From Nitzschia sp. pyKryTriq1 (Eukaryota > Bacillariophyta > Bacillariophyceae > Bacillariales > Bacillariaceae): a DNA stretch of 64,000 bases. The stretch lies in contig OY101130.1 in NCBI GenBank assembly GCA_956465555.1, positions 558,001-622,000 of the forward strand, given 5' to 3'. Position numbers and translations under genes: made by a program. The notes under the pieces were generated by a model, which did no database searches, was not told the origin of the DNA, and saw nothing but the letters and a program-made list of their open reading frames with translations. Below are positions 16,453 to 43,245 of the stretch, in pieces. The number at the start of each line of letters is the position of its first letter. The stretch's first letter is position 1.

Positions 16453-19400
16453 CTAAGTCTCCCCGAATGTATTTCCATAGTCCAACTCATATACCACAGC
16501 GCCTTCGAGGAATTGGCGATTTTCGTCGTTCCTTTGTGCTAGCTGACTTTTGTGTTCCCACTTTGCAAGGGCCGTCTCAACAATATCATACCCATCCACG
16601 TCTAAGTTCCTCCGAGGTTGTTCATCTGAAGAAAGCTCGTGGAATTCCGGACGATAGTGCCGGGAAAAGAATGCTGGCGTGAGCCAATGTCCGTCTGCAC
16701 CCACTGGTTGAGCACGCTGCAGCACGGGCTCTTCAGGATTGTACAATCGGTCTCCTGAGGACATGCGAGCTCTTGTCATTTGAAGAGGAGAATGGATTGA
16801 ATGGATTGATACTCCAGCAAAGGAATGTGCAAACAAGCTGTCATCAACGTCCACCGGGGGCAGCCTATTGGTAATCGTATCAGCGACTCCCTCCTCGAAA
16901 CACCCAGGAAAACGTTCTTGGCTGTTGTGGAGGTCGCGTTGGTGATAGACTCGAGATGGCATAAAGCTCGATCGTGCATGCTCGCAGTTGCTTTGTACAT
17001 GATACCCAACATTCCTTTCGACGACTGAGTTTTCGAATTTACCTTCCCTTTCTGTGACCAGACTTTCGAAGCAGAGCTGGTGCCGCAGGGAAAGACCCGG
17101 TTCACGATGTGGCATCAAATCTGCTGTGGGACTGCACTCAAGCATCATTTGATTTTGTCCATCAACAAACTGTAGAAGCGTGCTGGGAGTAGTTCTGGTT
17201 GGCGGTGTACTAGTAACCCGCGACCTCTTCAGGTACGGGCTTCGGTCGAAGAGGTCCGGCGACCTTGCCGTTGGTACAATTGGTGCATTCCCACTCAAAG
17301 CTTCTGGTTTGCAAACTTCGTTTTCTCTGGGACCAAAAAAACCCGCGACCCATTGCAGTGATGCATCGTGCTTATTCAATTCCTGCTGAGGTCGCATCAT
17401 CTGCTCGCTCTTAACAGTAGGTGGTCGACTGGTACCAAGAAAGTGAAGATGACCCGGAGAAAGAATAAATTTGTATGGACTGTTTTCTTTCGTGGTGCCC
17501 AATGGTTGCGTGTGAGCAGCAAGTATGAAAGATTCGCCTAGCTGAATGCTGCCGGTGGAGAGAGTGGAAATGGTGTCAATGGATTCTCGGTCTCTGTCCT
17601 CGGTGTCATTTTGTCGTGAGATAGTAGGTCTAGGCTTTCCCCCGGTAACTTCCTGGAGGAGTCTCGCAGCGTCATCTCCTATGTCATTGTATGAAGCGAG
17701 CATTGGTCTGGAATTCAGATTTCTCTTAGCCGCGTTGATGTTGCTGGCCACAGGATACACCTTATTTGACGCCCGCGAGTTCACTTTCCTATCGAAGAAC
17801 TCTCTTCCCCCCTTCGAAGACTTGTGGTTGGCTACGAGCAGGCCCTTGTCAGAAACCCGAGAATCATCTTTCGCCATAGACTCCAAGAAAGCCATACGTC
17901 GCTCCTGCTCTGCCTTTCCTTGTTTGAGTCGCTCTTTTTCGTTCATTATGAATTTGTCGACTAGGTCGGGGTAACATTTTTTGACAATAGACTGCGCTTC
18001 AATGGTAGAGAACTCAAATTCATCTATCGGATTTCCTTCAGAATCCGTCGTTGTTGCTTTGATCATCCAGCGAATCTCGAAAGAAGCGATCGCAGAACGA
18101 GTCAGTGCTTTGACGACCTTTGTTGGGACAGGCTGGTTCTTTTTGGAAGACAACGATACGCGAGGTCTAGGTGTTTTCCTTGGGTTGGCAGACTTGTAGA
18201 GACTGGATAGTTCTGATCTTGCAAGGAGTCGAGACAATGCCTGTAGAACAAAACCACGGCTTTCGGCATAGCTTCGACCTCGGATCATCAAAGAAGAATT
18301 GAGAAAGCCTTGTAGGTCTGGTGTCTTCATGAGCACATCACTGGAGGTCTTACCGACGAAGACCAGTGGAATCTGGTCATCGTTTGGTGACTGATACACT
18401 TTGGCAACCATCTCGGGGTCAAATCGAGGCTCCATCGCGAGAGCTTTCGCCTGCATTGACTTCCTAAATTTGCCACCAGGAGAAAGTTGAAAGCAAGGTT
18501 CACCCGGGCAGGTGCCGCACTGCAAGCATCCATGCTTTGCGTGGCTTGATTTTGTTCCCTTGTGGCAACAAAGCGAGCATTTCCTCTTTGAAGTTCCCAC
18601 GTATATGGTTCTACTGGTAGCATGTGCAGCTTTGGCCCACGAAACCAATTCGTCAAAAGCCGCTGTCTCTGATCGCAACGGATTGTCAATCTGACATTTC
18701 CTGATAAATCGTAGAGCTTTTCGGCATCCAACCTTGGGAAGACCGCTGCCAGCGACGTCACTCCCAGTAAGAATGGCAAATGCTATGAGTTCGATTCGAT
18801 TCAAGCTTACAACATCAGATGGGAGGGCAGACTCTTGGCGGGCCTTTGCGTCGTATTCGTCATTATCGTCGTCATCAAGACATGCTACCAACTCATCAGC
18901 ATCGTACCGCATCACCTTCCCTTCGTTGAGATTCTCAATAGAAAATTTGGTGAAAATTACCTTTGCACCAAACAGAAAGCAATCACCATCACTCGAGATG
19001 ACACCATCGACAATACCTTTCTGATTTAGCAAAGCGCACAAAGCCTCGCCTTCTGCTTTTGCCCTGACTACAGGAACTCCCAGGAGGCCAAGCATTTCCT
19101 CGCATCGTCGGCAAGCAAACCAAAACCGAGTACCACTTCTTCTTTTCTGAAATTCATCCTTCTCTCCGTCAACTCGGAGTCTGCGCTTTCCTTCGATGAC
19201 TGCGACGAGCTTGACACCGAGAGTGAGTAGCTTCAGGGTCCGGGTGAAAACAAGGTGAAGCGTGGGATCAGTATGATTTTCGGCCATAGCTGTTGAGCTG
19301 AGAGACTCGCATATCCAAATCGATAGGTCGATCGCAAGCGTAGGGTGTTGTTGCCTCGGCCGATTGTTGAAGTTCCAAGGAGTCGTCACTTGTTTCAATC

Positions 19401-19485
19401 TTTGGGGATCCAACAATCCTTCGGCTCCAAACGCTTTGCCACATTCGGCGCGATCGAGGGCTTTCCAGAGTGAAGCAACGGTCAT
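16453..19485 (-). CDS. GEN1: XPG/Rad2-family structure-specific nuclease, GEN1/Yen1/SEND1 type
   Basis: A nuclear flap/Holliday-junction endonuclease of 1010 residues. The ATG at 19485 starts MTVASLWKAL, close to the expected N-terminus for the family; the frame extends further upstream but that Met fits best. The XPG-N domain covers about residues 1-105 (AIDLSIWICES, LVAVIEG). XPG-I is at about 145-178 with EGEALCALLN and ISSDGDCFLFGAK, giving the acidic metal ligands. A helix-hairpin-helix follows (TGSDVAGSGLPKVG, about 237-258), then a Cys/His cluster CSLCCHKG...HAKHGCLQC...C at about 298-330. A segment at 465-512 (IRWMIKA...YPDLVDKF) resembles the chromodomain of GEN1. The last 450 residues are disordered, as in GEN1. 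One exon. The missing strand spacer of true XPG argues for GEN1/SEND1 rather than XPG. Confidence 0.85.
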   Translation of the reverse strand: MTVASLWKALDRAECGKAFGAEGLLDPQRLKQVTTPWNFNNRPRQQHPTLAIDLSIWICESLSSTAMAENHTDPTLHLVFTRTLKLLTLGVKLVAVIEGKRRLRVDGEKDEFQKRRSGTRFWFACRRCEEMLGLLGVPVVRAKAEGEALCALLNQKGIVDGVISSDGDCFLFGAKVIFTKFSIENLNEGKVMRYDADELVACLDDDDNDEYDAKARQESALPSDVVSLNRIELIAFAILTGSDVAGSGLPKVGCRKALRFIRKCQIDNPLRSETAAFDELVSWAKAAHATSRTIYVGTSKRKCSLCCHKGTKSSHAKHGCLQCGTCPGEPCFQLSPGGKFRKSMQAKALAMEPRFDPEMVAKVYQSPNDDQIPLVFVGKTSSDVLMKTPDLQGFLNSSLMIRGRSYAESRGFVLQALSRLLARSELSSLYKSANPRKTPRPRVSLSSKKNQPVPTKVVKALTRSAIASFEIRWMIKATTTDSEGNPIDEFEFSTIEAQSIVKKCYPDLVDKFIMNEKERLKQGKAEQERRMAFLESMAKDDSRVSDKGLLVANHKSSKGGREFFDRKVNSRASNKVYPVASNINAAKRNLNSRPMLASYNDIGDDAARLLQEVTGGKPRPTISRQNDTEDRDRESIDTISTLSTGSIQLGESFILAAHTQPLGTTKENSPYKFILSPGHLHFLGTSRPPTVKSEQMMRPQQELNKHDASLQWVAGFFGPRENEVCKPEALSGNAPIVPTARSPDLFDRSPYLKRSRVTSTPPTRTTPSTLLQFVDGQNQMMLECSPTADLMPHREPGLSLRHQLCFESLVTEREGKFENSVVERNVGYHVQSNCEHARSSFMPSRVYHQRDLHNSQERFPGCFEEGVADTITNRLPPVDVDDSLFAHSFAGVSIHSIHSPLQMTRARMSSGDRLYNPEEPVLQRAQPVGADGHWLTPAFFSRHYRPEFHELSSDEQPRRNLDVDGYDIVETALAKWEHKSQLAQRNDENRQFLEGAVVYELDYGNTFGET

Positions 19486-19856
19486 GATCGTTGCGATGTT
19501 TTTCCCACACAATGAATGAACAAGTTGAAAGATCATCCGATGTGAGGATTTGTACGGATATTAGCGAACGGAACCTTGTTTCAGAGGTTTTTGCTCGTTA
19601 CGATTATCGAAACTCTTCAAAGTGCAACTCGAAACCGACCCAAAAACCCGATGGCCGCCGCGCGCGCGAAATTAATAGTTTATCCACGACTGATTTCGGA
19701 TTCCCGAAGAATCAATCATCATCTTCTGTGGTAGGACGACGAGAGTCCAACGCGACTGTTTCGATTTCTTGGAGAACTATCTTGGCAAGTGCTGGTACCA
19801 TACTGTAGAGTTTCAAAATCATCAATAGCTAGAGTAGTAGAGTGCTCGATTGTTCT
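19486..19856. other. Gap between GEN1-like promoter and secretory protein 3' end
   Basis: About 370 bp, no gene supported. One isolated GTAC palindrome (near 19795) lies about 310 bp upstream of the GEN1-like ATG. Confidence 0.5.
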
Positions 19857-22918: not shown

Positions 22919-24740
22919 ACTCGGCACAGGAGACGGCTTGCAAGATGATGTGATAACTTGTTGAATCTCGATATCTATTCGAAGACAGATAATCTATGGG
23001 GTACGTATTTTGTCATCACACTACGAAGCTAATATGGAAGACCGTACAGGGCAATGATGATTTGCTTTTTGCTCCGAGTTCCATCCATCGTCATCATCAT
23101 CATCTTGTTGCTTCTTGCTTGCTGACTTGGCTGCATGCGTTGCGTGTTGCGTGTTGCGCGTTGTGATTGTATCGGTACTTGTACCACGTATTGGTACCAG
23201 GTGCTTGTACTGTACGATGAAACTACCGATTGTTGAGGGATTATTTGACTCCGATTAGTCAAAATGATCATCCGTTGTTCTTGTTTCATTCTTACAACTA
23301 GAGTGAGAATGACCGGAGGACGAGATGCAAATTCACACGAAGACTCTTACTCAACTACTCGAGCGTTCTTTTGTTATCTTTGCTATTGTGATCTCTCTTG
23401 ATCATTGTATCTATAATCAATTGACATCTATGAGCCTACCCCACCTCCGGATTCTACTGTTGGTCTGCGTGTCCTTTTTCAGGAGGAATGCTGTTGCACG
23501 AACTTCAAATCCCCTTCTTTTCACGAAAGACCCAGCGCGCATTGGCTCCCGTGCATCCCACCAAAGTCTGCTGCTACGCAATATGTACTGTCATTTTTTA
23601 CTTAAGAGCTGTTAGCCGAGCACACCCCACTCCGCTTGCGACAAGATATCGGGGACATCCTGCCAATCCTGCCGATTCTGCGCCTCTGATGCAAAGGCGA
23701 ATAGTAATACAACTGAGCTGTGATCCAGAGAAAATGTTCACTCTCTTCCAGTTGCTCGGCCATAGAGCAAACAAGGTTGGTTGGAGCAACAATCCAGAAG
23801 GGATCCTCTGGATTCATAATTTTCATATCACGTTAGTTGTTAGGTCTATGTAGAGAGATAGATACTAGTTCTTCGATGGTACGATCGGTACTGTATTGCA
23901 TTTTTGGCATCTGTCATCTGTCCACCGCACGAGAGCGAAAGGGCGGTTCGCCGGTTTCGCGCGGCGATTGGATTTTTCGCCTGTGGTAGTACCGGTAGAG
24001 ACTACTCGTACAGTAGACTGTATTGCTAAAACCAAAAACCACGATGTACTAACTATAACTATTGCAAGTGAGATACTTCGTACGGTACCGGTAGATGGGG
24101 TCGTCAAACAACCTGAAAAATGAATTCCTAGGAACACAGTCGTTATTAGTAACGCGCGAAAAACTTCCAGTATGATGTATAGTTATACTTTTTCCTTGCC
24201 CCCATATAAGCAATATCGCGGGAGAGAGGGAGCGTTATATAAAAGCTATATGCCAGCAGGCATTATTTCTCAGATAATCGGAAGGAACGAGAAATAAATT
24301 CTACCCGTGCGTAAAGCGCTGGACTTCGACATGGTTCCAGGACTTCCAAAAGTACGAGTACCTTGTACCAGTAGATCTACACTACTGGCAAGAAGGTACT
24401 GGTACATAGACGTACTGGTAGTGTACAGAACGATACCAGGTACCAGGTACAGTACCAGTATGTCAACAAGTATGTACCAGTAGCACGCACCCCGGACCTG
24501 GTAAAGTTTCGGCTGCTTAGCCGGGCGCAAAGGCAGAGGCTCTTTCTTCCTTGCTTTGTTTCCGCTCTAGTCTACTGGTATGCCGGCACAGAACATACTT
24601 TACTTTCTCAAGTACGGTAGCATAGTGGAGGCCAAGTACAGGTGAAAGGTGAAATATCCCATTCGTTCTCGCTAATAAAGCTCGAAGATCGGAGAGAAGC
24701 TTCAAAAAGGTCCACCTCCCCCATTCATTTCCATCGAGCA
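22919..24740. repeat. Long intergenic region with GTAC clusters
   Basis: About 1.8 kb with no gene I can support. Two GTAC clusters are present: 23170-23220 (about 250-300 bp upstream of the small mitochondrial-type gene) and 24352-24485. The second holds 11 GTAC sites in about 125 bp by my count and ends about 260 bp before the STAND ATPase ATG. Open frames at 23325-23853 (plus) are short and overlapping in two frames, with no convincing domain. Confidence 0.65.
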
Positions 24741-27700
24741 ATGCAAGGAATCTGCGACCCTGTTTCGTCTCTGTCGAAAATGGTCGACACTGGCGACTTC
24801 GGACCCGATGACTTCGTCGTCCTCAAAGGTGATGATTCGGCTTCGAGCTTATTGAAAGACAACAACTCTAGTGGTCATGATTCGAAAAGGAGTGGTTTCA
24901 GCGAAAGACAGTCGGCTGCCAGCCGCGGTGGACATTCAAAGGTCTCCTATTTTTCTGTTGGTCAAGAGTTTTATGATGACCGATATTCAGACAACGAGGA
25001 CGAAGCCAGTATTGCAGATAAACTGGATTTCTCACATTTACGAGTGCAGGGTCGAAAGCGGGAGCTTCTGCGACTTCATAATATCTACAATTTTGTTCAT
25101 CAACGAGGTCTTGGACGAAGACAAAATCGAAAGAAGGGGGAGACATCGGTGGCGATCATTAAAGGATTATCTGGCACGGGGAAATCTACCATTGTAAAGC
25201 AATTCATAGCAGAGTTGGAAGAAAAAGCCAGGTTACCCGGGGGTCCATGCATGCCTTTCTTCATCCACGGAAAGTACGACGAACTTGCGGTCACTGATCC
25301 ATTTTCGGCGATTGTTGAAGCTTTTAGCAGATTCGCTTCTCTGCTGCTCTCAGGGGAGAGTGAAGAGCTAGAACGGATACAGAAAGCAGTCCGGGAAAAG
25401 CTGGGCTCAGAGGCTAATACACTGGCAACAGTTATTCCAAGTCTAAAGGCGGTATTTCCCAACCAAGCACTCGCCAAGGGATCAAGAGAGAACGCTAGAA
25501 ACAAGCTACGATATATTTTTCAAACGTTTGCGAATGCAATCAGTACTCAAAAACGACCGGTGGTGATGTTTCTGGATGACCTTCAGTGGTGTGATTCCGC
25601 ATCATTAGAACTGATCCAGGCTCTGCTTACCGATGTAGACCTTCGCTATTTCATGTTCATCGGTGCGTATCGACCGGACGAAGTGGAGTCAGGTGACGAA
25701 CTTGTTCGGTGCCTAGAGGCAATCAACAATATTCAGCACCTCGAGGAGGTCGAGTTGCTAAACCTGTCGAAGTGCGAGTTGAACTCTATTGTAAAAGACG
25801 TCCTTCATCGAGACGAGGAAATGGACACAATGGAGCTGACTGACGTTATATTCAGGAAAACAAATGGAAACATCTTTCATTCTATTCAAGTGATGGAGGA
25901 GCTTCAGCGAAAAGGCGTGCTTGTATTCTCTCGTCTGACATTTCAATGGGAGTGGCAGTTGGACGATTTCGACCTTGAAAATCTTCTTTCTGAGGATGTG
26001 ATCCAGGCAGTTACTGAAAAAATTATGAATTCCCACAAAGATTTGCAGCGGGTGCTGGTTTTGGCGGCATACACTCGATCCAGCATTGATATTCAAACTT
26101 TGCAGCAACTCACAGATCTTGACGGACTTCCCATCCCATACGAAGGTCTACTTGAGATTCTTGACAAAGCGGTGATTGATGGTTTGCTCACTAATAGCAT
26201 GGGTTCAAAATATTACAGTTTTGCTCACGACCGTATTCAGCAAGCTGGTGAGTAAAGGCTATGCTAGTTTCTCAAAGCCAAGCGGCGAATGCTGATAATT
26301 TTTGTTCTTGTTTTTTGTTGGTTGCAGCTTATGCAATGGTTCCTCCTGGAAAGATCAGAGATAACCTTCGTATGAATCTTGGTTTAAGACTTTATAACTT
26401 GGGTACTTCGTTGGAAATAGATGATTGGATGTTATTTGTGGCAGCCGATCATTTGAACGCCACCGCGCTACATTTAAGCAAGGAAGACCCATTATTTCTG
26501 ATTCATTTAAATTTGGAAGTAGGCGATCGAGCCGCCTCCCTTTGCGCCTACGGGACCGCTTCAAAGTATCTCGGTATGGCGATGCAATCTCTCTTGCGAT
26601 TGGAAAAACCATGGGAGGAATATTATGAAACCACGTTGCGGGTCTACCGAGCAATATCGGAGGTCGAGTTGTGCCAAGGGCATTTTGAAGTTGGCAAGGG
26701 GATCGGGCAGCAAGTTCTGCGACGAGGTCGGTCTCTTGAAGACAAATTACCAACACAGGTGGCAATTTGTAGAGCTGTTGGACGCGAGGAGCGCCATATG
26801 GAAGCCTTCAAAATGAGCGTCGGCATACTTCAAAGTCTTGGGACCTTGTCAAAATCCAACATCGGTTTGAAAATACGGATGGTGAAAGATTTTCTTCATG
26901 TCAGACGCTATTTGAAGAACCATTCAGATGAAGAGCTCGTGAATATTCCAATGAGTAACGACAAGAAGCTGGAGATGACCATGGAACTTCTTTCGGTCGC
27001 AGCGTACCATGCATATTATAGTGGGGCCATGGTCGACTTTTTGGTCGCAATTTTGAGGCTTCTGCGACTATCAGTGGAACAAGGATACTCGATACATTCT
27101 GGGGTTGCTATGATGGGATATTGCCTAATTTGCAGCAATTTAAATGATATGGAGGGGGCCCTTCGCTTTGCTCGTCTCGCTCGCGATATTCTCACCCATA
27201 CCAAGGCCAGGGAGCTAGAGTGCCTGCAAATCTTCGTCGTTTCTCACTGGGTACTAGCATGGAAAGAGCCCCATGAAGAAGTCATTGAGTTGTACGAACT
27301 TGCGTCCAAGTCTGGCATGGAGGCCGGTGATTTCGAGAATGGTCTTTTGAGTCGGACTGCCGGTTATCATCATGGATTTGTTGCTGGGCATGAATTGGCT
27401 GCACTAGAGAGCAAGCTTTCGGGTCTGATGGAGAAACTGAAGGTATACAAGCTCAACTCAGTGCAAGTCATGACCGTCGAGCAACTGCGTCCAATTCCCT
27501 ATCTTCGAGGTACATCGAAAGTTCCACTTGATGCCAAGGAACTTCAAAATTTCGGACCGGTAACGCACAGTTCCTCGGAGAATTATCGTTTACTCTATGG
27601 CTATATGGCACGTCTCCAACTCGGGGTATATTTCAACGAAGATGAACTTACGCTTGTGATGCTTCAGAAGTTTGCGTCTCTGCCTGACTTTGATTTGGCA

Positions 27701-28402
27701 TTTGGTACCAAGTCGATTCGCTTGTGTTTTTCATCTTTGGCTTATTCAACGCTCTACCGAAAAACTGGAAAAGGGGGTTATCTCAAGAAGGCTAGAAAGT
27801 TCATCAAACAGCTAAAAGGTCTCAGCAAAGTCAAGGGGGCCAATAGTTGGCACCGGTGTATGCTGATGGATGCGCATTTACTCGCAGCAGAAGGCAAGAG
27901 GGGGGCAGGCATTCAAGCCTCGTATGATCACGCGATCGGAGCTGCAAAACGAAGTGGCCATATCCATGATGCAGGTCTTGGGGCCCAATTAGCCGCCGAG
28001 TACTTTTTAAGCATGGAGGATGATTTCAAAAACCATGCGGTGCTTTCTAAGGCAAAAGATATGCTAGTGCGTCAGTACCTGGAACACGCCCGAGAACTTT
28101 ACCTGAACTGGGGAGCGGTTGGTCTGGTGAATCATCTGGAACGCAAGTACTCAAAATACCTTCAGCCGACCTCAATGGAACAACAATTGACCGAGTTTAG
28201 TTCCAATGGACCGTCGTTCAATTCTCAGGGAGAGCTGAATCTGATGCAAAATCAACTATTCACTATGCCCAAGACTATCAACGATCAGCCTCGGGAAGAA
28301 GGAAAGGACGAGCTTTCCGTGCTTACCGATCCGTGGAAAGATAATCCTGAGTTTGCTACAAACCCTCACACCTCTGAGGGCGACTTTCCTGCTTCCGGCT
28401 GA
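24741..28402 (+). CDS. STAND/AAA_16-type predicted ATPase with helical repeat tail
   Basis: Two exons, 24741-26247 and 26328-28402, join in phase 1 across an 80-bp intron (GTGAGT...TTGCAG) for 1193 residues. The frame upstream of 24741 lacks ATG. After an acidic 70-residue start, the ATPase domain begins with RKRELLRL; Walker A is GLSGTGKST (about 143-151) and Walker B is VVMFLDDLQW (about 273-283), followed by a sensor-like FIGAYRPDE. From about residue 480 on, the protein is a run of amphipathic helices resembling TPR-type arrays, with a disordered last 60 residues. The domain matches the predicted-ATPase module found in cyanobacterial and stramenopile multidomain kinases, where it sits between a Ser/Thr kinase and a histidine kinase; here both flanking kinase domains are absent. 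STAND proteins act as nucleotide-switched signalling scaffolds. Partner unknown. Confidence 0.83.
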
Positions 28403-29630: not shown

Positions 29631-32600
29631 ATGTCGTCCACTCGAAACAAGCGGAAGCGGCCCGAAAACGACCCGGCAGCAATGGCCCCTGCTTCTCGTC
29701 GCAGATCACGCGATTCGCGCGCGGCAGCTGACGCTGCGTCGGCAGCGGCAAGCCCAAAAAATGAAGCCGAGCCAATTTCGGGTGACAATGGTGCCGGTAC
29801 AGCTATCAAGACTGAAGACACCGTCTCAAGCTCCCCAGCCGAAATGAATATGGAGAAAGACACTTCAGGTAAAACAGCTCCCAATGTTCCAAAGCCGCTG
29901 AAAGAAGAAGCTGAATCAGCTCTGCGGGAACCTGCCGATCCGGGAGCTGGATCCAGTGAGTCGGGCTCTGCTCCAAACCAACCCTTGCACTTATCGGCTG
30001 GTGGAAATGAAGGTGACAACACGTCAACAGAGGATCCGGACCCTGACGGCAGCGATCGAGCTTCCCATATACGCGATCTTATAGCGCATCGATCGCTTTT
30101 GCTATCAAGGATACGGTTGTGTCGGAGGGCTTCCGAGAAACGACTGTCGGAAACCAAAGCTGCAGTGCATATCACAGGGGATGCGCAACAGAATACCGGG
30201 GGGGCGTGTAGGGAAATGACAGACGATGAAGAGATTCAAGCGCATCGAGAAATGGCGAGGCTTGCGTCTCAGGCAGCGAAGAGAGCTCGAGGTGAAGGAG
30301 GCGAGGGACCAGCGGAAAAGCGAACCTCTCTCTCCCTTCGAAGGGGGTCTAGCGTCGGGAAACGAATGAACGCGGCATTGTCATCCTTAGCACCAGGTGT
30401 AGGTGCTGCGGCTGGATCAGGCGCCGATTCGCCGGTCCCGGTGCAGGCAACCAGCACAACCGGAGGGAAGACATTTCAAAAAGCCTCTTCAGCTACTACA
30501 TTGGCAGGCACAGCTACGCCTGGACAAATTGCATCGCTACCAAAAGTTGGAAGCGCTATGATGCCACAAGCACCGACTTTGCCAAACACTAAAAATGCTA
30601 AGTCTGGACCTGGCCAGGGGCATCAGTTGCCACGCCAAACCTCGTTTGGTGGTTCAGATGGGAAGCCGATCCGCACCTCAGGTGGAAAAGCTTTCAAATC
30701 AAGCACTCCATCGCTGCCGAGAACTGATCTAGCACCTGCTTCCTTGCGTCCCAACAACCTGCATTCAAACTTGCCTAATCGTTTGCCACAATCGAAGACG
30801 AATTTCACTGAAGCTATGTTGCTGAGGAAAAGAAGGGATGCACTTAACGCGCAGCTTCGAACGTTACTGGAGAAACAAAAACCCCGAGGCAGTGAGGTTG
30901 ATAGCATTCGACGGAGTACATCACCCACTGGTCGGTCTTCTCGATTTTCAAGTAGTGGTAGCCTAGAGATCGGACCTAAGGAGGAGCTTCCGAAACGACG
31001 CAAAACGCACTGGGATCGCTTGCTTCAAGAAATGAGTTGGCTTGCGACGGATTTTATCGAGGAACGGAAATGGAAAATGTCTTCAGCAAGAACAATAGCT
31101 TCGGCCGTGTTGTCTTCCAGCTCAAACCTAGGCCCAATCAATGCTGCTGCGAAAAAGGTGAGCACTACCGCTCTTACCACAAAGGCAGAAATAGAAGCCG
31201 CAGGCGAAATGAGAACAGTCAAACTGAATGACGAAACGCATACAGATTCGTGCCCCCTGGAGGAACGCAAATACCTGAAACCGTCGTCTGAGGATACCAG
31301 AATGGCCAGAAAAGCGGGGCGATTGATGGCATCCATGATATCCGAACTGGTGCTTGCTACGACTGAAGTAGGAGCGATGGGGCACACAGATGAATTTCAC
31401 ACCCAGGCACTTGATCGCTACAAAAAAGTCAGGGCAAAGTTGTTGAATGACGGACCTTCTGGCTCTCAAAGCACTGTTCCTGACGGACACTCCTCTACTG
31501 AAGACAACCCACAATGCGGTGAGGTAAAGATAGAAGTCGACGAAAATTCATCGGAAATGGCAGATCCCAATGGCGATTCCGGGGAGTTGACCTTCAGCGA
31601 CATCAGCAAACGAATAAACGATCTTGGCCTTCCAAACGGCAAAAGGGACAAATTTGCCTTCAAAGATCTTGCTGCAGCTGTTACCAGGGGGAAGTTGAAT
31701 GTCTCGGATGAGCAGAAAGAAATGATTGAATTTGTCGATGGGATATGGAACACGACTTCTGCAGGGGCAATGCTTTCTGGGTGGCCAGTATCCGGCAAGA
31801 CGGTGGCAACTTGCGCTTTGTTGTGGAAACATAGGCAAGATGGCCCACACCTGATTATTTGTCCACCTGCTAGTATGGTAAGTGACGCGCGCCTGTGGCT
31901 GAATCTACGCGTAGACGATCTTTGACTGCTGCTAATGCACTTTTCTGCAGCTTCGGTGGAAGTACGAAATTAGTCTTTTCAAGGATCTTCGGGTTTTAAA
32001 TTTCGGTTTGGTTGGAGGTATTGGGTGCACAGTCAAGGGTGTGTCTTTTGAGAGCGTTTCACCAGGTCCCGGTGATGTTGTACTTTGCGAATACTCTTCG
32101 GTCGGGAAAATTCTTGAGCTGGTGCGAGATGACGGGATCGAGTTTCGTTCGCTATGTATTGATTGCCGACACCCCGAGGGTATGTTTGGGTGTATCGGGC
32201 TTGATGAGTCGAAAATGACTCGGAACGAGGGATGGCATGGTTCCACTGAATTGATCACAGTCGAATGGTGGGACAATGTCATGGCTCTGGCAGCTAGAAA
32301 AAGCCCCCATAGGCTGATGATCGATTACTGCGACCCTGATACGTATTCCCTGAGACGGTCTGGCTTGAGGCAAAGGCTGCAACTCGAGATCATGTCTTTG
32401 CGCACAGCTTTTCTGGTGGGGCCTAGAACATTTCGTCCTTCCAACTATCCACTTCCGAGGACTGTTATTTCGTGGGCACGCCACCAGCAAAAAAATGAGG
32501 GTGAAGACAAGTTTGAGCGGGTACATCGTGTTCTTCGAGAGACAACGTCGCCGCTATCGATTTGTATTCGGAAAACTTTTTCTGTATCGTCCTCCTCCTC

Positions 32601-35600
32601 GTGGGATGTCCGGGAGTGTGATATGCCAAGTTTGCAGCGGAATGCATATGATAGCTGCTGTTCCCACATTCGAGGCGCTCTTTCTTCTTCGCTTGGTGCA
32701 AATATACAGGATGATATGGTGGCCAGTACCTACTGCGCAGTGCCAGCTGCACTATTTAGGCTTCGGCAAATCTGCTTAACGTCCAGTAGCTTGGAGAAAG
32801 TACAAGGCAACGAATCTGCTTCTTCAGCTGGGACTCGACCATATGTGAATACTGAGCCGTGCAGCGTCAAGGCAACTCCAACCGAAGCAGGCCCATACAA
32901 GATGGCCTCTGACAACTCGTCTCAACCTAACGTTGAGCTGGCTGAGGTGCTGTTGACGAGTTCGGCGAAATTCGTAGAACTTGTATCCATCTTACGGAAT
33001 GAGTGCGGCTACGCCCTAGAGAACGACGAGGTAGTCGGTGCTTTGACGAAACGCACGGGGAATGCTAAAGAAGCAGACTCATACCATGGCAGTCCAAACC
33101 ATCGCAAGGTTGTGATCTTTGCGAATCTTCCACGGACACAGTGGCTAGTGTCAATTCTTCTTGGCTCTCTTGGCGTCCGACACAAGTTAATCCGTCGTGA
33201 ATTCTCGCACACGTCCGCCAGTTCGAGTGAAGACTTTCGTCAACACAATCAAGCGGCTCTAGCGTGGGCAGAATCGCAGAACACACTGGCGGCGTTCAAT
33301 TCAGAAAGAGACACAAGGGAGAAGATGGGGGTTTATGAAAGTGCCGACATTCTTATCGTGTCGCCTGATTCCTTGGCATCATGGCACGGCGGGATTGGCG
33401 TTGACAGTGCTGACACGGTAATTTCGTTGGACGAAGATTGGTCTGGTCGTGAAATGGGGACACTCGAGGCATCCATATCTCGCTGGAAGGCCTCAACGTC
33501 GCTTCGAAAAGCTCCTTCCAAAATGATTAGATTGATATGCAAAAGCACTATCGAGGAGAAACTCTTCAAGTCATCAGATCCACATAACGTCTCCGGTATC
33601 TTTCAATGGCCGCTTGATCGTTCGGGAAATCACTTACTGTATATGGCCATCACTGATCTTGTCTCCATCTATCAGAAAGCCATGGAATCTCGTGCGTCAA
33701 CGGTCCAGCTTCCCGGGCTTGATATTCTGAAACTTCGTGGGAAACCCCTTGACAGTGTGCTTCTTGCTTCAACTGAACTCGCACCTCTATTCGGAAATGG
33801 CTCGAACATGTTGTTTTTGCCTCTTGATGAAAGTAGCGACGGCCGTGAAAGACGTGATAACAACGAAGTGACGAGAGGAGTTTATTTGTTACGTTCGCTC
33901 TTCGAACTGGAGTGCGGAGAAACCTGCAAGGATTTGTCTGAGTCGTCTACTGATTCCTTAGCATTCACAAGAAAACATCATTTCGGTTCCGGTGTTCTGC
34001 CCCCAGAGCCTGCTTATTTCCCAGAGCATGTCATGTCCCGCTCTGATCTGCAATTTTTGTCAATTAGGTATTTTTTGGAGAGGCAGATTGCCCTATCGGG
34101 GCGACGTTCTTGCAGCCGCAGAGGGATTACACTCTCTCGGCTGTCCGACTCAGGAGGGAACGCAACAAGGCTTAACGGCGCAATACCAGAAAGTTCCACC
34201 CAGGATGGGTTTGCGATGGCAGATGCCTGGCAAAAAGGTGGCCTCGGTTCGAAACCGGATGAAATGGCAAAAAGTTTGCTTTGCTACAGGCCGGTCACGG
34301 AAGGAAAGCCCAGCGCTGAAAATGTTAGCAGTATTTCTGGGACTCCTGGGACGGGCGGTCGTTTCAACGTCTATTCTCGGCTCTACAGTACCACGTGGGA
34401 CGAGAACTACGTGAGAGACGGCAGCCAGGGGTGCGAACCGGTCGTATTCTTCCCGCCTCTGCACCCCAAGATTCAGCTTGCCCCAGCTGCCACGACGAGA
34501 AAAACAACTGTGCATCCTACCAAAGAACGCGACCCAGTTCCGAAGCAAGTGCCTCCGTCTCCGTCGACGGAGGACAGTTTGGCTTCCGCCAGCGCAATGA
34601 AAAGAAAAGAAAGCGATGCTCATGTAGGTGTGGAGCCAGGTGCAAAGCGGCCTTGTACGGAAAACGACTCGTCAGCTGTGGAAGTCGAGTTGCCACTGAA
34701 AGAAGTCATTGCGGTGCCGGACAGTAGTGGGCTCAGTATGCCCCCAGAGGCAACAAAGAACGAGCCTATTGGCCAGACTGAGAAACAGTCACCTCAGGCT
34801 GTCGGGCCCGGGCCCTTGGGGGCTTCTACGAGTCGCGAGCTTGTAGCAGAAGGATACGAGGAAGATGACTACGGTTTGCTAGGAAGAGGTGTACTTCCCT
34901 TGGCTGCAGACAGCGCTTTGCTCATGGCCAATGAATCGACAGGAGTTGGGGAACGCAGCGGGAATGCTGACTTTGTACAGAATTTCCTTGCCTATGATGA
35001 TGAGGCCGAATCATGTTGGTCTCATGATAGTGAGGACGCTTTGCAGCTTATCGCTCTTTTTGTCAGGCGGCGTCCCCGGAACATGATGCCCATTCGCGAG
35101 CAGCATAGTCAGTCCTATCGCCCTCATACTGGTTTGTTCCCAGGGGAACCTCGGCGAGCAAGCGCACAACCTCTCCCTACGCTGGATCCTGTGCCATCCG
35201 TGGCTTCAGCGCGAGAAGTCAATGGGGATGAAAGCGCCAAGAAAGCAAAAAAGAAAGTCACCAGCCAGGTTGCAGCTTCGGCGTTCACTCGTATACCGAA
35301 TCCCGGACAAATACGACAACCGCCGGCTATAACGTCTGCACAGTCCAATGGAAAAGACAGCCACAAGCACCGCATGCTGGCTACGTATGTTTCCAGGCAA
35401 TTCGGGACAGGTTTGAGCATGTTTGAATCTTCTTCCTTCAGGGTCGCAATGATGCACGTGCAAAAGCGAGTCATGAAGAGAGTCGATAGAGCTTTCGCAA
35501 AGTCTTTCTTGTCCAACGATGCAGGTTCAGGACTTCCACTGTATGCCTTGAATCAGCCGAAAGCTATTTCGGAGTTCGAGCAAGGCATAATTCAATTCAC

Positions 35601-36849
35601 TTCGATTGTGCAAGAGCTCAAGGCGGGTTCCAACACCGGCGATGCTGCTAGAGTCCTGGCAACTGCACAACGATCGACATTGCGCCGTTCTTTGGTTTCA
35701 CCATGCAGAGTAGATTTTGGTCCCTTTGCAGGCGGATTTCTTGCATCGCCAGCCGGCATGACTGGTATATCGCCACCGCGCTCTCGGTTAGGCGTTTCAT
35801 TGCCCATGGGAGTGAAGGTAACTCAAGCCATGCATGACCAAGCGCAACCTTCCTGGACTATTGAGGAGGACAAGCTTCTGCAAGACGCCGCCGTTAGATA
35901 TGGTATGAACTGGATCATAGTTGCACGGGCTTTGAATGGGGTTGAAGGCTTCCTGGTCACTGATGCGGAAGTTGGACGTCCAGCTTGCAGATTGGCACGA
36001 TCTCCGCGATCGGCACGGCAGTGCAGAGATCGCTGGCAGTCCCTGGCCAGAAGTCAACCTTCGTTGGCTAGCGAGGTACGCAAGTCCGAGAAAATACTCC
36101 GCGAGAACGCACTTAGACGGGTGGACAGTATGGGCAAAGAAGAAGTTGTTGTCGTGCGATGTGCAACTTTGGGTCCCATCGGTAGCGGTGGAAAATTCGT
36201 TCTTTTGTCGAGGCCCTCGCTGTACGACGAAAGTATAGCCACAGACAATGACAAGATGGAAGTTGACTCGCGGCCGACCGACGATAACTTGCCTACGCCG
36301 ATGGAACCTGTTGCGAACGAGACGAAGGCGTCTCCTTTGCCACCGAAGCGATCCTTTTCGATACTCAGAGCTGCCATGGCGAAACGTCAAGTCACCCCCC
36401 TCACGATTCCGGGCATACCTCCTGGTGGCCAACCCAATCAGCCGGTTCCATCTCATCCATCCCATATGCAGTCTGTTCAGTCGTCCGTTGCCGCTCAGTG
36501 GTCGAATGGAAGAACAGAGATGTGGCCGTTGCAGATATTGGACTGTGCTGACAAGCACCGTGCCGCAGTCCGGGCGTCAGCTCAACGCGCAAGTGAGATG
36601 AAGCAAGCGTCAGCAAGTTCTACGAACGCCTCGTGCAGTGGCAGCGCACCACCCTCTACAAACCACCGACCTGCTCCAATGAGTAGTCGACCCCCATCGT
36701 ACTCGACTTCTCAACGACCTTCGGCTTCGACCGCTTCGCCCAAACGAGGCAAAGGAGAATCATCAGGAGGCCAATCAAACACGTCCAAAAGTTCCTCGGC
36801 AGCCGCCAAGAAGTCCGACAAGAGCAAAGCTCCGGCAAAAAAGACATAA
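29631..36849 (+). CDS. EP400/Eaf1-like chromatin protein: HSA + degenerate SNF2 motor + SANT
   Basis: Two exons, 29631-31877 and 31951-36849, join in phase 0 (GTAAGT...CTGCAG, 73-bp intron), giving 2381 residues. The HSA domain is at about 453-525 (KTHWDRLLQEMSWLATDF), a platform for actin-related proteins. An SNF2-like region follows, about 700-1285. A GKT Walker A is kept (GWPVSGKTVA, about 715), with the LIICPPASML segment after it. The DEAH box is replaced by CIDCRH (near 817) and motif III is unrecognisable. A linker with VHRVLRE, MPSLQRNAYD and FRLRQIC follows, then the second lobe with KVVIFANLPRTQWL, GIGVDSADTVISLDEDW and STIEEKLF, but without the arginines of motif VI. A SANT/Myb domain is at about 2047-2120 (PSWTIEEDKLLQDA...ARQCRDRWQSL). 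Family knowledge: HSA plus SANT defines Eaf1/EP400 scaffolds of the NuA4 acetyltransferase. Inferred: a non-catalytic scaffold. Confidence 0.85.
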
Positions 36850-37026: not shown

Positions 37027-38520
37027 TCACAGCTTTTGCAAAACAACCAGTAGGCCCAGTACATCCGATCCTTGATTCTTTCGTATCGGTGCTGTTTGCA
37101 ACTTGACACATTGGAACCCATTCGCTCTAGCAAGATCTTCTATATAACTTTGTCGATGGGAAAAACGAGCACACGAGTGCAGTTGGAAGGCGGGACAAGA
37201 ACCCGCGTCTACTGTGTCTTCCAGCAACTCGGTAGAGAAGCAAAAGTACCCATCGGCGGTGAGAGAACGTGCCACCGCTTGAAACACTGCCATCAGGTCT
37301 CCAATGTAACAAAACACATCACATGCCAATATCAGATCAAAATCACCAGAACGTCGTGCAACACTATGCCTTGCTTTGTCGTCTTCCATTTCGTGTTCGT
37401 TTGCTCTTACTAAAAGTATTGTTTCCAGGGTTGTCTTCACGTCCCCGAGATGCAAATCCGAGTAGCATCCACGTTTCCTTGCTTGGTCCAACATTGCCGG
37501 TGACAGATCGATGCCTACCAATGCTCCACCATCAATGAGTTCTTGAAAGGCCAACCCCGAAAGCCCCGTCCCACAACCCAAATCACAAACATAGTGAAAA
37601 CGACGTTTGTGGTTGTTTGTTGTTAATACGATGTCCAAAAGTTGTCGAAGTTTGGTAGGTGTTTGATACTGGAGCTTTTCCACTAGAAGCTCGTCGAATC
37701 GTGCCGCAAATGTGGAGTATAGGCCGACCACGTATTCTGCAGGGCATTTGTCAATCACAACAGTAATTGCTGTTGAAGCAGCTACAGAGCCGTTGTTGTT
37801 GTTGTTGTTTGTTGGAATGGTGGCCAACCAAAAGCTAGCCATTTCATTTTGGCGGGACGAGCCGTAAATCTGGGATTGTTGAAAATGGTATCGAGCGCTT
37901 GGTTGATGCGTTTCCGATGGAAGCTTTTTGCGAAAGAACTGCCCCAATCGAAACTCTTGTTGACTGATAAACTCTTTTTCTGCCTCTGAATAATACAAAC
38001 TGTCGTTGGCGACTCCTCGAAGATCCTCGAGGAGGCGTTGGTACAGCTGGGTCTCGCAAATTGTCAAATTTCGTCGATTGGGATGGGCCTTGCTTCCCTT
38101 TCCAATTTCCCCCTTAATCCTTTGAGACTCTTCCTCTCGTTCTTCTATCAGTAGCCTGACTAACAATCCAATCCGAGCCAATCGAAACTTATCTGACGAC
38201 GACGACGACAAGTCTATTGCTTGGACGAGAGCCCGTCTTCGTTCGGACCAGTCTCGAGCGGCGATCGACAAGGCAGCATATCCAAAAGGTCGTTCCGGCG
38301 CCACTTGAATGGCACGTTCCGCAACAGCAACAGCCTCATCCCTCAGCTTCTGCGTGTCGTCCAATGAATGATGATGTGCCTTTTTGGATCGGTTGACAAG
38401 AAGGGATGAAAGTTGCATCATTGCCCGGGCATTGCGAGGCTTGTCGGAAAGCAAATTCCTCAAGGCATCTTCTTTGGATTTCAATTTCAAAGAATCATCA
38501 TTATCGTCAATTGCGGTCAT
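37027..38520 (-). CDS. TPR-containing SAM-dependent methyltransferase
   Basis: A 497-residue single-exon protein; the open frame runs upstream of 38520 but has no ATG, so MTAIDDNDDSLKL is the start. The N-terminal half is helical: segments ARAMMQLSSLLV, AVAVAERAIQVAPERPFGYAAL and ARRALVQAIDL-like repeats look like TPR units. The C-terminal half is a class I methyltransferase: motif I DLGCGTGLSGLAF is at about residue 310, then VGIDLSPAML, and motif IV-like FDLILACDVFCYIGDL. The combination matches a predicted TPR-methyltransferase group better known from bacteria; the substrate is unknown. The start codon faces the LSm10-like gene, so the two share a promoter region of about 320-430 bp. Confidence 0.83.
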   Translation of the reverse strand: MTAIDDNDDSLKLKSKEDALRNLLSDKPRNARAMMQLSSLLVNRSKKAHHHSLDDTQKLRDEAVAVAERAIQVAPERPFGYAALSIAARDWSERRRALVQAIDLSSSSSDKFRLARIGLLVRLLIEEREEESQRIKGEIGKGSKAHPNRRNLTICETQLYQRLLEDLRGVANDSLYYSEAEKEFISQQEFRLGQFFRKKLPSETHQPSARYHFQQSQIYGSSRQNEMASFWLATIPTNNNNNNGSVAASTAITVVIDKCPAEYVVGLYSTFAARFDELLVEKLQYQTPTKLRQLLDIVLTTNNHKRRFHYVCDLGCGTGLSGLAFQELIDGGALVGIDLSPAMLDQARKRGCYSDLHLGDVKTTLETILLVRANEHEMEDDKARHSVARRSGDFDLILACDVFCYIGDLMAVFQAVARSLTADGYFCFSTELLEDTVDAGSCPAFQLHSCARFSHRQSYIEDLARANGFQCVKLQTAPIRKNQGSDVLGLLVVLQKL

Positions 38521-38947
38521 CGCAACAAGTACGAGTACATACTGTATCAATATCTGCGGCGGGAGCGAGGAAGGAAACTCCAAACTACTCCTGCCGGTAT
38601 ACTCTGCGGTACTGCTGTGGTCGAAGCGCAAAAAGTCGTCATTGTCAAAGAACAAAAATTGCCGGAATGCGGAATAATGCGATCCTGGCGTCCATCCGTC
38701 TGACGCAAGTTCTCTAAAAGATACGGGGGAACTGCAAAATCAGGGAAGAGAGTGATGAGTGTCAACCCCCAATAATCACATCAATCTCCCTCCGCCGCAT
38801 ATTGTACATACCGGTACTGTAAGCTCCGCAAAACGCACTGTCATGCCCATTGTAGTACCAGGTACTGTACCCGAAGTAATAACCCTGCATCTTCCTCTGC
38901 CATACCACGATACCATACCAGGTACTGTAGAGCCAGGAAACGAAATC
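38521..38947. repeat. Bidirectional promoter region with GTAC palindromes
   Basis: This gap separates the divergent methyltransferase and LSm10-like genes. From about 38810 to 38935 it is full of GTAC palindromes spaced by a few bases. The frame of the LSm10-like gene is open through it and an ATG at 38843 exists, but the repeat composition argues that coding begins at 38948. Confidence 0.55.
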
Positions 38948-41152: not shown

Positions 41153-42305
41153 GATAGGGTTGCTGGTTGCGACATTCAATGTAAAAATACAATACTATGA
41201 AAATATGAAAAACCACAACTCCTGGAAGAAGGACGATCGATTCAATGTTTGTGCTCTGGTGGCCCTTTGATGTTTGATGTTGACAGGAACGAAGATGGCT
41301 TCACCCACCGTCCTTTTGGGAATGAGAAGTCGCAATAGAAAACACCCGTACCCGGCCGGTACCTGTACAGCTCTAGCCTTTTAGTCTTGTTATCTTTTTA
41401 CGAGTACTGTGCCTGTATATGTACCTGGTGGGTCTACCTGCACTGTGCCGGTACGCGTCCCTTCTTCGACTACCTTTTGCTTTTGTTCGCCGTTCGCCGG
41501 CCCTTTCACGGAAAATCTGCTGACATCATCGGGTTTCGCCGCCCCGACGCAACGCAACCAAAACAGTGCGCTATGCTCGCAGCTAGCAGGCAGGGACGAC
41601 GCGGATGTAAATTGACTCAATGGACCTTCTTTCGTTTCGTCGTCATTTCCTGGGTCATTTTTTGGTCAGCTGTTCGAATAACTACATCGAACGTCCACGG
41701 AACGACGGACGGACGCGACCAGCGTTCGCAATTACGCACGATCACGCACGACGCACGTTTCGATCACGACCCAGAGATTCATCCTAAGACCCTCTGAGAC
41801 AGTCTATGATCCTCCAAGAAACTATAAGAAGCCCACAGACTTCTATCGATATACATGTCAACGATTCAAGAAAAGTAGAAATGAACAAAAGTTCATTTCA
41901 TCAGTTAGAGCAAGAGCTCATTAATTTATGTTAGCGCACTTCGTTAACCCACAGTCAAATTAGTCCTTTAGCCCGAATCCCTGAGCCCATTAATTTATGT
42001 TAGCGCACTTCGTTAACCCACAGTCAAATTAGTCCTTTAGCCCGAATCCCTGAGCCGCTAGCCACTGCCTAGAACTCACGGATTTTAACAGTCAGCACCT
42101 TCATCTTTCGAGTTTTGTTTGGGCTTTTTAGATGCTCTGGCTCTTTGGCCTCTGGGCTTTGGCGACTATGGGTGCTGTGTATCACCATCCAAATCTTTCT
42201 ACACCACGACAGGTACTCGTACAGTAGTATATTACTATCTATTGAGTACGATTACTCATTATTTATGTATTTATTTATTTTATCCGCTCGCAATACAGTA
42301 AGATA
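41153..42305. other. Intergenic region with GTAC palindromes
   Basis: About 1.15 kb. GTAC palindromes at 41347-41453 sit about 195-300 bp upstream of the second RING gene ATG. A perfect 69-bp tandem duplication occupies 41919-42056 (listed separately). Open frames are short and overlapping; none is supported. Confidence 0.55.
41919..42056. repeat. Perfect 69-bp tandem duplication
   Basis: Positions 41919-41987 and 41988-42056 are identical over 69 bp, directly abutting. Each unit starts CATTAATTTATG, contains the palindrome GTTAAC and ends CCCTGAGCC. The absence of any difference indicates a very recent duplication or an assembly artefact. Confidence 0.95.
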
Positions 42306-43245
42306 ATGATGGATCCCGAGCAGCGGTTTCTCCAATCCCGACAAGCGCGGCTGTCTGCCTCGACAACTTCGACCTCGACGTCTCATCATCGGAACGAGGA
42401 GTTGAGTGTCTTTTGGTCGGAATTGAGGCGACGACTCAAAGATTGGACCGATCGTTTAGAACAATGTTGTTGTTCTTGTGACGGCGGCGGCGAAGTCCTC
42501 CGTGATAGTAGCCGCAGTTTAGACGACAATAATGAAAAAGGCTCGCTTCGTCGTCAAGAGTTGCAAGACTTAAAGGAAGAATTGCAAACGTTGCGGCAGT
42601 ATTGTTTGCATAATCATCATCACGCCGATAATTCTGGAATGACGTCGTTGTCATCATCTTCGTCGTCGTCGTCGTGGTCGGTGCCCACTGATTTGCCCAA
42701 TGCCGATCTACGATTACTGCATGCGGAATTCACTCGATGTTCGACGCGCTGGGAAAGCGTACATGAAAAACTATTTCCCAGGGGCAAGTTTACCTTTCGA
42801 CGTTATCGAGAAGAATTGGCGAGACGAAAAGTTCTGGGGATTCCCTTGGAGGAGGAGGAGGCGGCGGCGGCGGCAACAATAAGTGCAAGTACCATTACTT
42901 CGAATAGTAAGGGACAGGGTGCTGTTTCATCGAGAAGGAATCATCATGTTCTGGACGACAATGGCAGTATTCAAAATATATCCGATTCCACCATTCATAT
43001 TCTTGACAACGGCACGGTACAAATCCATGGACGAGAGCACAGTCCTGTGTACAGGGAGGATTCCTCTTCGTCGGCCAAGAGAATATCCTTTGCAGCGGTC
43101 TTGCTCCGAAATGTCCAGAATTGTACTGTTCAAATGTACGTTGATTTTTTACTGTATTACGTCAATATCGTCGTCATGACATTCTAGTAGACCAAGCTCA
43201 TGCATCGTCGTTGATCTCTCTCTCCTTCTCTCTCCATCTCTCTCC

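Follow-up and report, generated by a model that had tools for sequence, protein, structure and literature searches.

What is a protein that has the domain order of EP400 but whose motor can hardly be recognised? The question is raised by a gene at positions 29631..36849 of a 64,000-nucleotide stretch (hereafter the window, in whose numbering positions are given) from the diatom Nitzschia sp. pyKryTriq1 (assembly GCA_956465555.1, contig OY101130.1, positions 558,001 to 622,000). The gene lies on the + strand, as do all of its features described below, consists of 2 exons and encodes 2381 residues. We favour, with moderate confidence, the reading that this scaffold is a NuA4 platform subunit of the EP400/Eaf1 kind, whose motor relic would not hydrolyse ATP and which would work like Eaf1 on an EP400-like body plan. 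The diatom scaffold is a real, unusual variant of a known protein type. A literature search limited to certain terms, and to sources available in part, yielded no description of an EP400 or Eaf1 from a diatom in which the motor is dead.

A Pfam search of the protein identified an HSA domain at residues 451-494 (30981..31112; PF07529, E 3.4e-13) and, C-terminal to it, a SANT/Myb domain (35851..36045; PF00249, E 2.2e-6, 28.1 bits, cut-off 24.4). The latter contains extra residues between its parts, 65 residues being spread over 43 profile positions. The interval between the two domains gave no Pfam match at E up to 10, in a search whose HMMER filters discard most weak matches. Among solved structures, the HSA segment was closest to human EP400 (43.4 bits), followed by SRCAP (38.0) and EAF1 (34.6; other EAF1 chains 19.4 to 17.0). 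In the available part of one study, EP400 residues R807, K809 and H811 are reported to contact DMAP1 and the post-motor domain (PMC11995519). These residues (chain 8qr1) align with Arg, Lys and His in the diatom HSA domain. Both domains named in the original prediction, which had been made from the sequence alone, are present, and so is the EP400-like order of HSA, degenerate SNF2 motor and SANT in one protein.

The region between HSA and SANT escapes a standard search for motors. With PF00176 (SNF2), a search of the genome (40.65 Mb, 20 contigs) at E up to 0.001 returned 45 matches, none of them in the scaffold gene. The same genome holds 8 silicon-transporter matches over the cut-off, in keeping with a diatom. 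As Pfam reports no motor, domain-based surveys would probably file the scaffold as Eaf1, and the protein shows that domain searches can overlook such motors. With a profile made from 34 SNF2 pieces of other proteins of the same genome, the protein scored 29.1 bits, spread over three colinear segments; 200 shuffles reached -0.4 at most, and the reversed protein was not among the matches listed. A second profile, of 94 SNF2 cores, gave 47.7 bits, compared with a maximum of -2.5 among 200 shuffles. It combined 12 cores from the diatom genome (of 24 own-genome pieces), 80 from bacterial and archaeal genomes and 2 from viral contigs, the last two groups being all 82 of the loci L042-L123; from one frame set, loci L002 and L003 (same places as L034 and L035), loci L009-L015 and frames of <300 residues were omitted. 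Using hhalign, 388 columns were aligned with a probability of 98.3 and E 1.4e-14, the homology spanning both lobes. The predicted SNF2-like region thus stands out beyond chance, and the short stretches that the prediction had named, GKT (residue 722), LQRNAYD (977), FRLRQIC (1018), ISRWKAS (1258) and STIEEKLF (1281), were all found in the protein. Judged by homology, the region between HSA and SANT is a motor relic.

When the window's 55 stop-to-stop frames were ranked with the 94-core profile, those of the two exons came first (28.8 bits) and second (9.2). The third-ranked frame (42246..43184, + strand) reached 5.2 bits (E 2.9e-4 for one sequence) and has no Pfam match; its SNF2 score is probably due to chance. 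Small scores therefore count for little, and since this frame also passes the HMMER inclusion line, the score of exon 1 by itself is no strong evidence.

Which parts of the motor are retained was analysed by scanning the protein with 18 SNF2 blocks, each against 120 shuffles of the protein. Several blocks were equalled by none of the shuffles: motif Ia (residues 739-759, 31845..31980, crossing the intron; 28.9 bits), motif II or Walker B (MFGCIGLDESKMTRNE, residues 827-842, 32182..32229; 14.9 bits), in which Asp-Glu is kept, a block preceding lobe 2 (ECDMPSLQRNAYDSC, residue 971, 32614..32658; 14.4 bits), the RQI block (LFRLRQICLTSSSL, residue 1017, 32752..32793; 18.3 bits), the GKL block (SSAKFVELVSILR, residue 1086, 32959..32997; 13.8 bits), the block after motif V, V2 (VDSADTVISLDEDWSG, residue 1233, 33400..33447; 19.3 bits), and the block after motif VI, post-VI (MIRLICKSTIEEKLFK, residue 1274, 33523..33570; 24.8 bits), which keeps 0.75 of its maximal score. 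Motif Ib (GDVVLCEYSSV, residue 790, 32071..32103) scored 10.5 bits, a value reached by 1.7% of 120 shuffles. The motif I remnant (AMLSGWPVSGKTVATCA, residue 713, 31767..31817) has kept Lys-Thr and lost the first P-loop Gly; it scored 9.1 of ~45 bits (2.5% of shuffles). A motif IV remnant (RKVVIFANLPRTQWLVSILL, residue 1134, 33103..33162) was weak (9.2 bits, 6.7% of 120 shuffles), and the block before motif V, at 7.4 bits, was equalled by 28% of shuffles. The retained blocks are colinear, following each other along the protein in the correct order. Motifs III, V and VI did not rise above shuffled sequence in the protein, and none was seen in the six frames of 31400-33900, which bears out the predicted loss of motifs III and VI. 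A single Arg is present close to where motif VI would be expected. The intact ATPase motifs that characterise EP400 are therefore not found here: III, V and VI score no better than chance, I is weak and II is kept.

For motif II the original prediction had to be corrected. It had read the DEAH box as CIDCRH (residues 818-823, 32155..32172), which scored -0.25 bits on the motif II of the profile, versus 13.3 for LDESK; the own-genome profile gave 1.99 and 12.43 for CIDCRH and LDESKMTRN, respectively. LDESKMTRN (residues 833-841) lies a few residues past CIDCRH, and residues 827-842 form the best motif II site. Since CIDCRH is outscored by LDESKMTRN, the Walker B Asp-Glu is retained (D-E-S-K). 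With both the Walker A Lys-Thr and the Walker B Asp-Glu in place, the relic could still bind nucleotide. Within positions 32155-32229 of the window, two neighbouring stretches resemble motif II, FRSLCIDCRH and FGCIGLDESK, and may stem from a small internal duplication.

Decay was compared between five ATP-site blocks and the 13 others, with each score taken as a fraction of its maximum and 82 loci and 24 own-genome pieces as comparison. In the scaffold, the ATP-site blocks averaged 0.20 of the maximal score and the others 0.40 (p 0.018); when the pre-I block was set at its expected place, the others averaged 0.38 (p 0.038). The non-diatom motors had the opposite sign in 82 of 82 cases (+0.03 to +0.15), although the 82 loci and 12 own pieces had themselves been used to build the profile and score higher for it. 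In 7 own-genome pieces each of the five ATP-site blocks reached at least 12 bits; these ranged from +0.05 to +0.19, but their selection by those very blocks is circular. Judged by these scores, decay is uneven, with the ATP site worst hit and parts of the structure eroded too. Which motif residues act in catalysis is general knowledge of SF2 enzymes. Because motifs III, V and VI and the first P-loop Gly are lost, the motor is most likely unable to hydrolyse ATP, in agreement with what had been predicted. That the fold is kept under selection we infer from one sequence.

Several observations weigh against the platform reading. The HSA domain of SRCAP trails that of EP400 by a mere ~5 bits. Positions 33640-35400 have no match to a solved structure in a search at E up to 10. 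The non-catalytic blocks post-III, LRR and LDG likewise do not exceed chance, nor does pre-I where it is expected, and for this reason the fold may not be intact. In 9 of 24 own-genome SNF2 pieces the difference (ATP-site minus other blocks) is likewise negative, down to -0.15; several of these pieces are cut by introns or frame ends, such as the lobe-2 frame of SWR1, found complete after joining. Finally, some activity is conceivable, as the Walker A Lys-Thr and Walker B Asp-Glu persist.

The loss of post-III, LRR and LDG alongside the catalytic blocks could mean that the same platform carries an unfolded relic, a neutrally decaying linker heading towards a motor-free Eaf1. The unevenness of decay is indeed modest across all 18 blocks, with the p values given above. 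However, Ia, RQI, GKL, V2 and post-VI outscore 120 of 120 shuffles, and post-VI keeps 0.75 of its maximum; we regard such a linker as unlikely. A relic that is partly folded and no longer hydrolyses ATP is still the reading we prefer.

The position of the relic among SNF2 motors was approached by tree and by pairwise scores. In the motor tree, the diatom end branch measures 6.96 changes per column and meets another long branch; being this diverged, the motor cannot be placed. Pairwise scores favoured no single SNF2 subfamily. According to the available parts of two studies (PMC9643008, PMC11995519), the RUVBL ring of EP400 and SWR1-type complexes accompanies an insert in the motor. At the insert site the scaffold has a spacer of 55 residues (32794..32958), compared with 251 residues in the SWR1 of the same genome, 222 in locus L042 and 6 to 40 in the other comparators. 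The whole set of comparators comprised 28 loci of L042-L123 and 6 colinear own pieces, with one misaligned row set aside and 18 non-colinear own pieces omitted. The long RUVBL-docking lobe-2 insert of EP400 is accordingly absent (55 versus 251 and 222 residues). Because it is missing, RUVBL recruitment is not expected, and we infer that the scaffold, like yeast Eaf1, would not hold RUVBL. Locus L042 (2501-4507, on an IMG/VR contig) encodes a SWR1-type motor whose best segment is 62% identical to the diatom SWR1 query; the contig may be eukaryotic and filed as viral.

A motor that fits no subfamily and has no SWR1-type insert might also have been acquired separately, in a lineage-specific fusion by which an Eaf1-like HSA-SANT gene captured a SNF2 motor that later decayed, with no descent from EP400. 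The published fusion model (Auger 2008, via the parts available of PMC4358907 and PMC6089883) makes such an event thinkable. It would require, however, capture at the exact EP400 place followed by death of the motor; the HSA domain is nearest to that of EP400, and an HSA-ATPase-SANT order is also reported, in the accessible text, for plant PIE1 (PMC4358907) and Acanthamoeba (PMC6089883). We therefore consider a fusion distinctly unlikely. It is improbable, too, that the protein is an active, very fast-evolving EP400-type remodeler with motifs III, V and VI unrecognisable yet functional: motif I Lys-Thr and motif II Asp-Glu are retained and an Arg is found close to the site of motif VI, but neither the protein nor any of the six frames shows III, V or VI above chance, and the LRR and LDG blocks are lost as well.

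Further evidence comes from the rest of the genome. Only 3 HSA matches lie over the cut-off genome-wide, with a further 3 weaker; the three genes over the cut-off are the scaffold, a SWR1 and a SNF2 protein read as the bromodomain type. Since the other two are SWR1 and a bromodomain-type SNF2 protein, the scaffold is the only NuA4-platform candidate among these matches. Family matches were obtained for TRRAP/Tra1, EPL1, DMAP1, 2 MYST, 2 RVB and YL1. A separate, intact SWR1 gene, the presence of which had been proposed as a check, was indeed found: 13 of its 13 scanned blocks score high, and the domains identified in its three frames include no SANT. In locus L035 (2439-5450, - strand), the frame with lobe 2 of this diatom SWR1 continues into an F-box-like domain, as one protein or across an unrecognised gene boundary.

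These data also bear on a degenerate SWR1 paralogue, PIE1-like with HSA-SNF2-SANT, that would serve H2A.Z exchange instead of a NuA4 platform. PIE1 shares the domain order (PMC4358907, in the part available), and the SRCAP HSA domain lies only ~5 bits behind EP400; yet the genome has another SWR1, in whose three frames no SANT was among the domains found, and no other NuA4-platform candidate among the HSA matches over the cut-off. A paralogue of this kind is highly improbable.

As a platform of the EP400/Eaf1 kind, the scaffold would work as follows. By analogy with the human and yeast complexes, its HSA helix would gather actin, Arp4 and DMAP1, with TRRAP held by the SANT domain. The motor relic is probably still partly folded, as a spacer or docking body, and may bind nucleotide through the Walker A Lys-Thr and Walker B Asp-Glu. 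Without the long insert it would not recruit RUVBL1/2, leaving histone exchange to the separate SWR1. The net role would be an Eaf1-like mode of working with the EP400-like body plan retained. In flies, the ATPase of DOM-A is reported to be dispensable for H4K12 acetylation (PMC7239659, as far as available); a motor at the HSA-SANT position can thus be idle. Of the original interpretation, the HSA-degenerate SNF2-SANT architecture, the EP400-nearest HSA domain, the separate SWR1 and a probably non-hydrolysing motor stand, while its motif II assignment does not.

The gene itself is real, its joined exons encoding the predicted single protein of 2381 residues. Exon 1 (29631..31877, residues 1-749) covers the N-terminus, HSA, motif I and the first half of motif Ia, and its coding score is highest in frame 0; exon 2 (31951..36849) encodes residues 750-2381 and the stop codon. 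They are separated by a GT-AG intron of 73 nucleotides (31878..31950) that falls within motif Ia, and this junction is supported because the motif Ia match (28.9 bits) runs unbroken through it. The in-frame coding score was highest and positive in 6 of 6 segments, with the lowest value, 0.040, at 850-960. A pseudogene, gene-model or assembly error, which the extreme divergence of the motor might suggest, is very improbable in view of 2381 open codons, these coding scores, the colinear blocks and the finding that no intact motif is hidden in any of the six frames of 31400-33900.

Just downstream lies a convergent neighbour, encoding a methyltransferase-domain protein (37030-38655, - strand). 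Upstream, an AAA_16-type ATPase frame (24642-26252, + strand) runs directly up to a frame of 713 residues that has no Pfam match (to 28402), and the two (24642-28402) perhaps form a single large gene. The gene at 16456-19536 (- strand) encodes a nuclease of the XPG type that carries a chromo-like domain (XPG_I, XPG_N, Chromo_2) and presumably resembles GEN1-type resolvases.

How such a scaffold arose touches on the history of the whole family. In the usual account, EP400 is a merger of Eaf1 and Swr1 (PMC11995519, PMC6089883, PMC9643008, PMC4358907; each available in part). A survey, in the text accessible to us, lists p400-like proteins in animals, plants, Acanthamoeba and 'molds'; for brown algae it gives Eaf1 plus Swr1 (PMC6089883). 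A protein with the EP400-like order and a motor relic, from an organism that is neither animal, fungus nor plant and has its own separate SWR1, points to loss and not to merger. Loss, at least once, is a history that the diatom protein fits, although the direction of change is not proven by one species; on the same single species, an EP400-to-Eaf1 intermediate is plausible. The relic suggests how motor-less versions, such as that of yeast, may have arisen. An orthologue was not found in viral contigs (exons 1 and 2) or genome contigs (exon 2), in searches with six short peptide patterns each that reach close relatives only. A bolder proposal, which we put forward tentatively and consider rather doubtful, is that Eaf1-type scaffolds are decayed EP400s, that HSA-SNF2-SANT is ancestral, and that many protist proteins called 'Eaf1' from their domains carry cryptic dead motors as structural pseudo-ATPases. 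If true, such an origin would overturn the picture of EP400 arising from a merger of Eaf1 and Swr1.

Compared with known systems, the diatom scaffold combines features of several. Yeast Eaf1 and human EP400 are platforms in which HSA holds the actin-related protein module and SANT holds Tra1/TRRAP (PMC11995519, PMC9643008, in the parts available). With EP400/Domino-A, the platform of animal TIP60, the scaffold shares the order of HSA, SNF2-derived motor and SANT, the best HSA match, and a genome with TRRAP, EPL1, DMAP1 and MYST family matches; unlike them, its motor lacks motifs III, V and VI, has a damaged P-loop and misses the long RUVBL-docking insert. Akin to Eaf1 of yeast and AtEAF1 of plants, it has HSA and SANT, stands beside a separate SWR1-type protein and would not be expected to remodel, but between these two domains a SNF2 remnant can still be recognised. 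The HSA-SNF2-SANT order is also that of plant PIE1; PIE1, however, is needed for H2A.Z incorporation (PMC4358907, available in part), whereas the diatom genome has a separate SWR1. A precedent is the CHD3-derived MOM1 of Arabidopsis, a chromatin protein whose SNF2 remnant is partial and dispensable, according to the accessible text (PMC2507757); MOM1 differs from the diatom scaffold in belonging to another family, in having lobe-2 motifs alone left and in its role in silencing.

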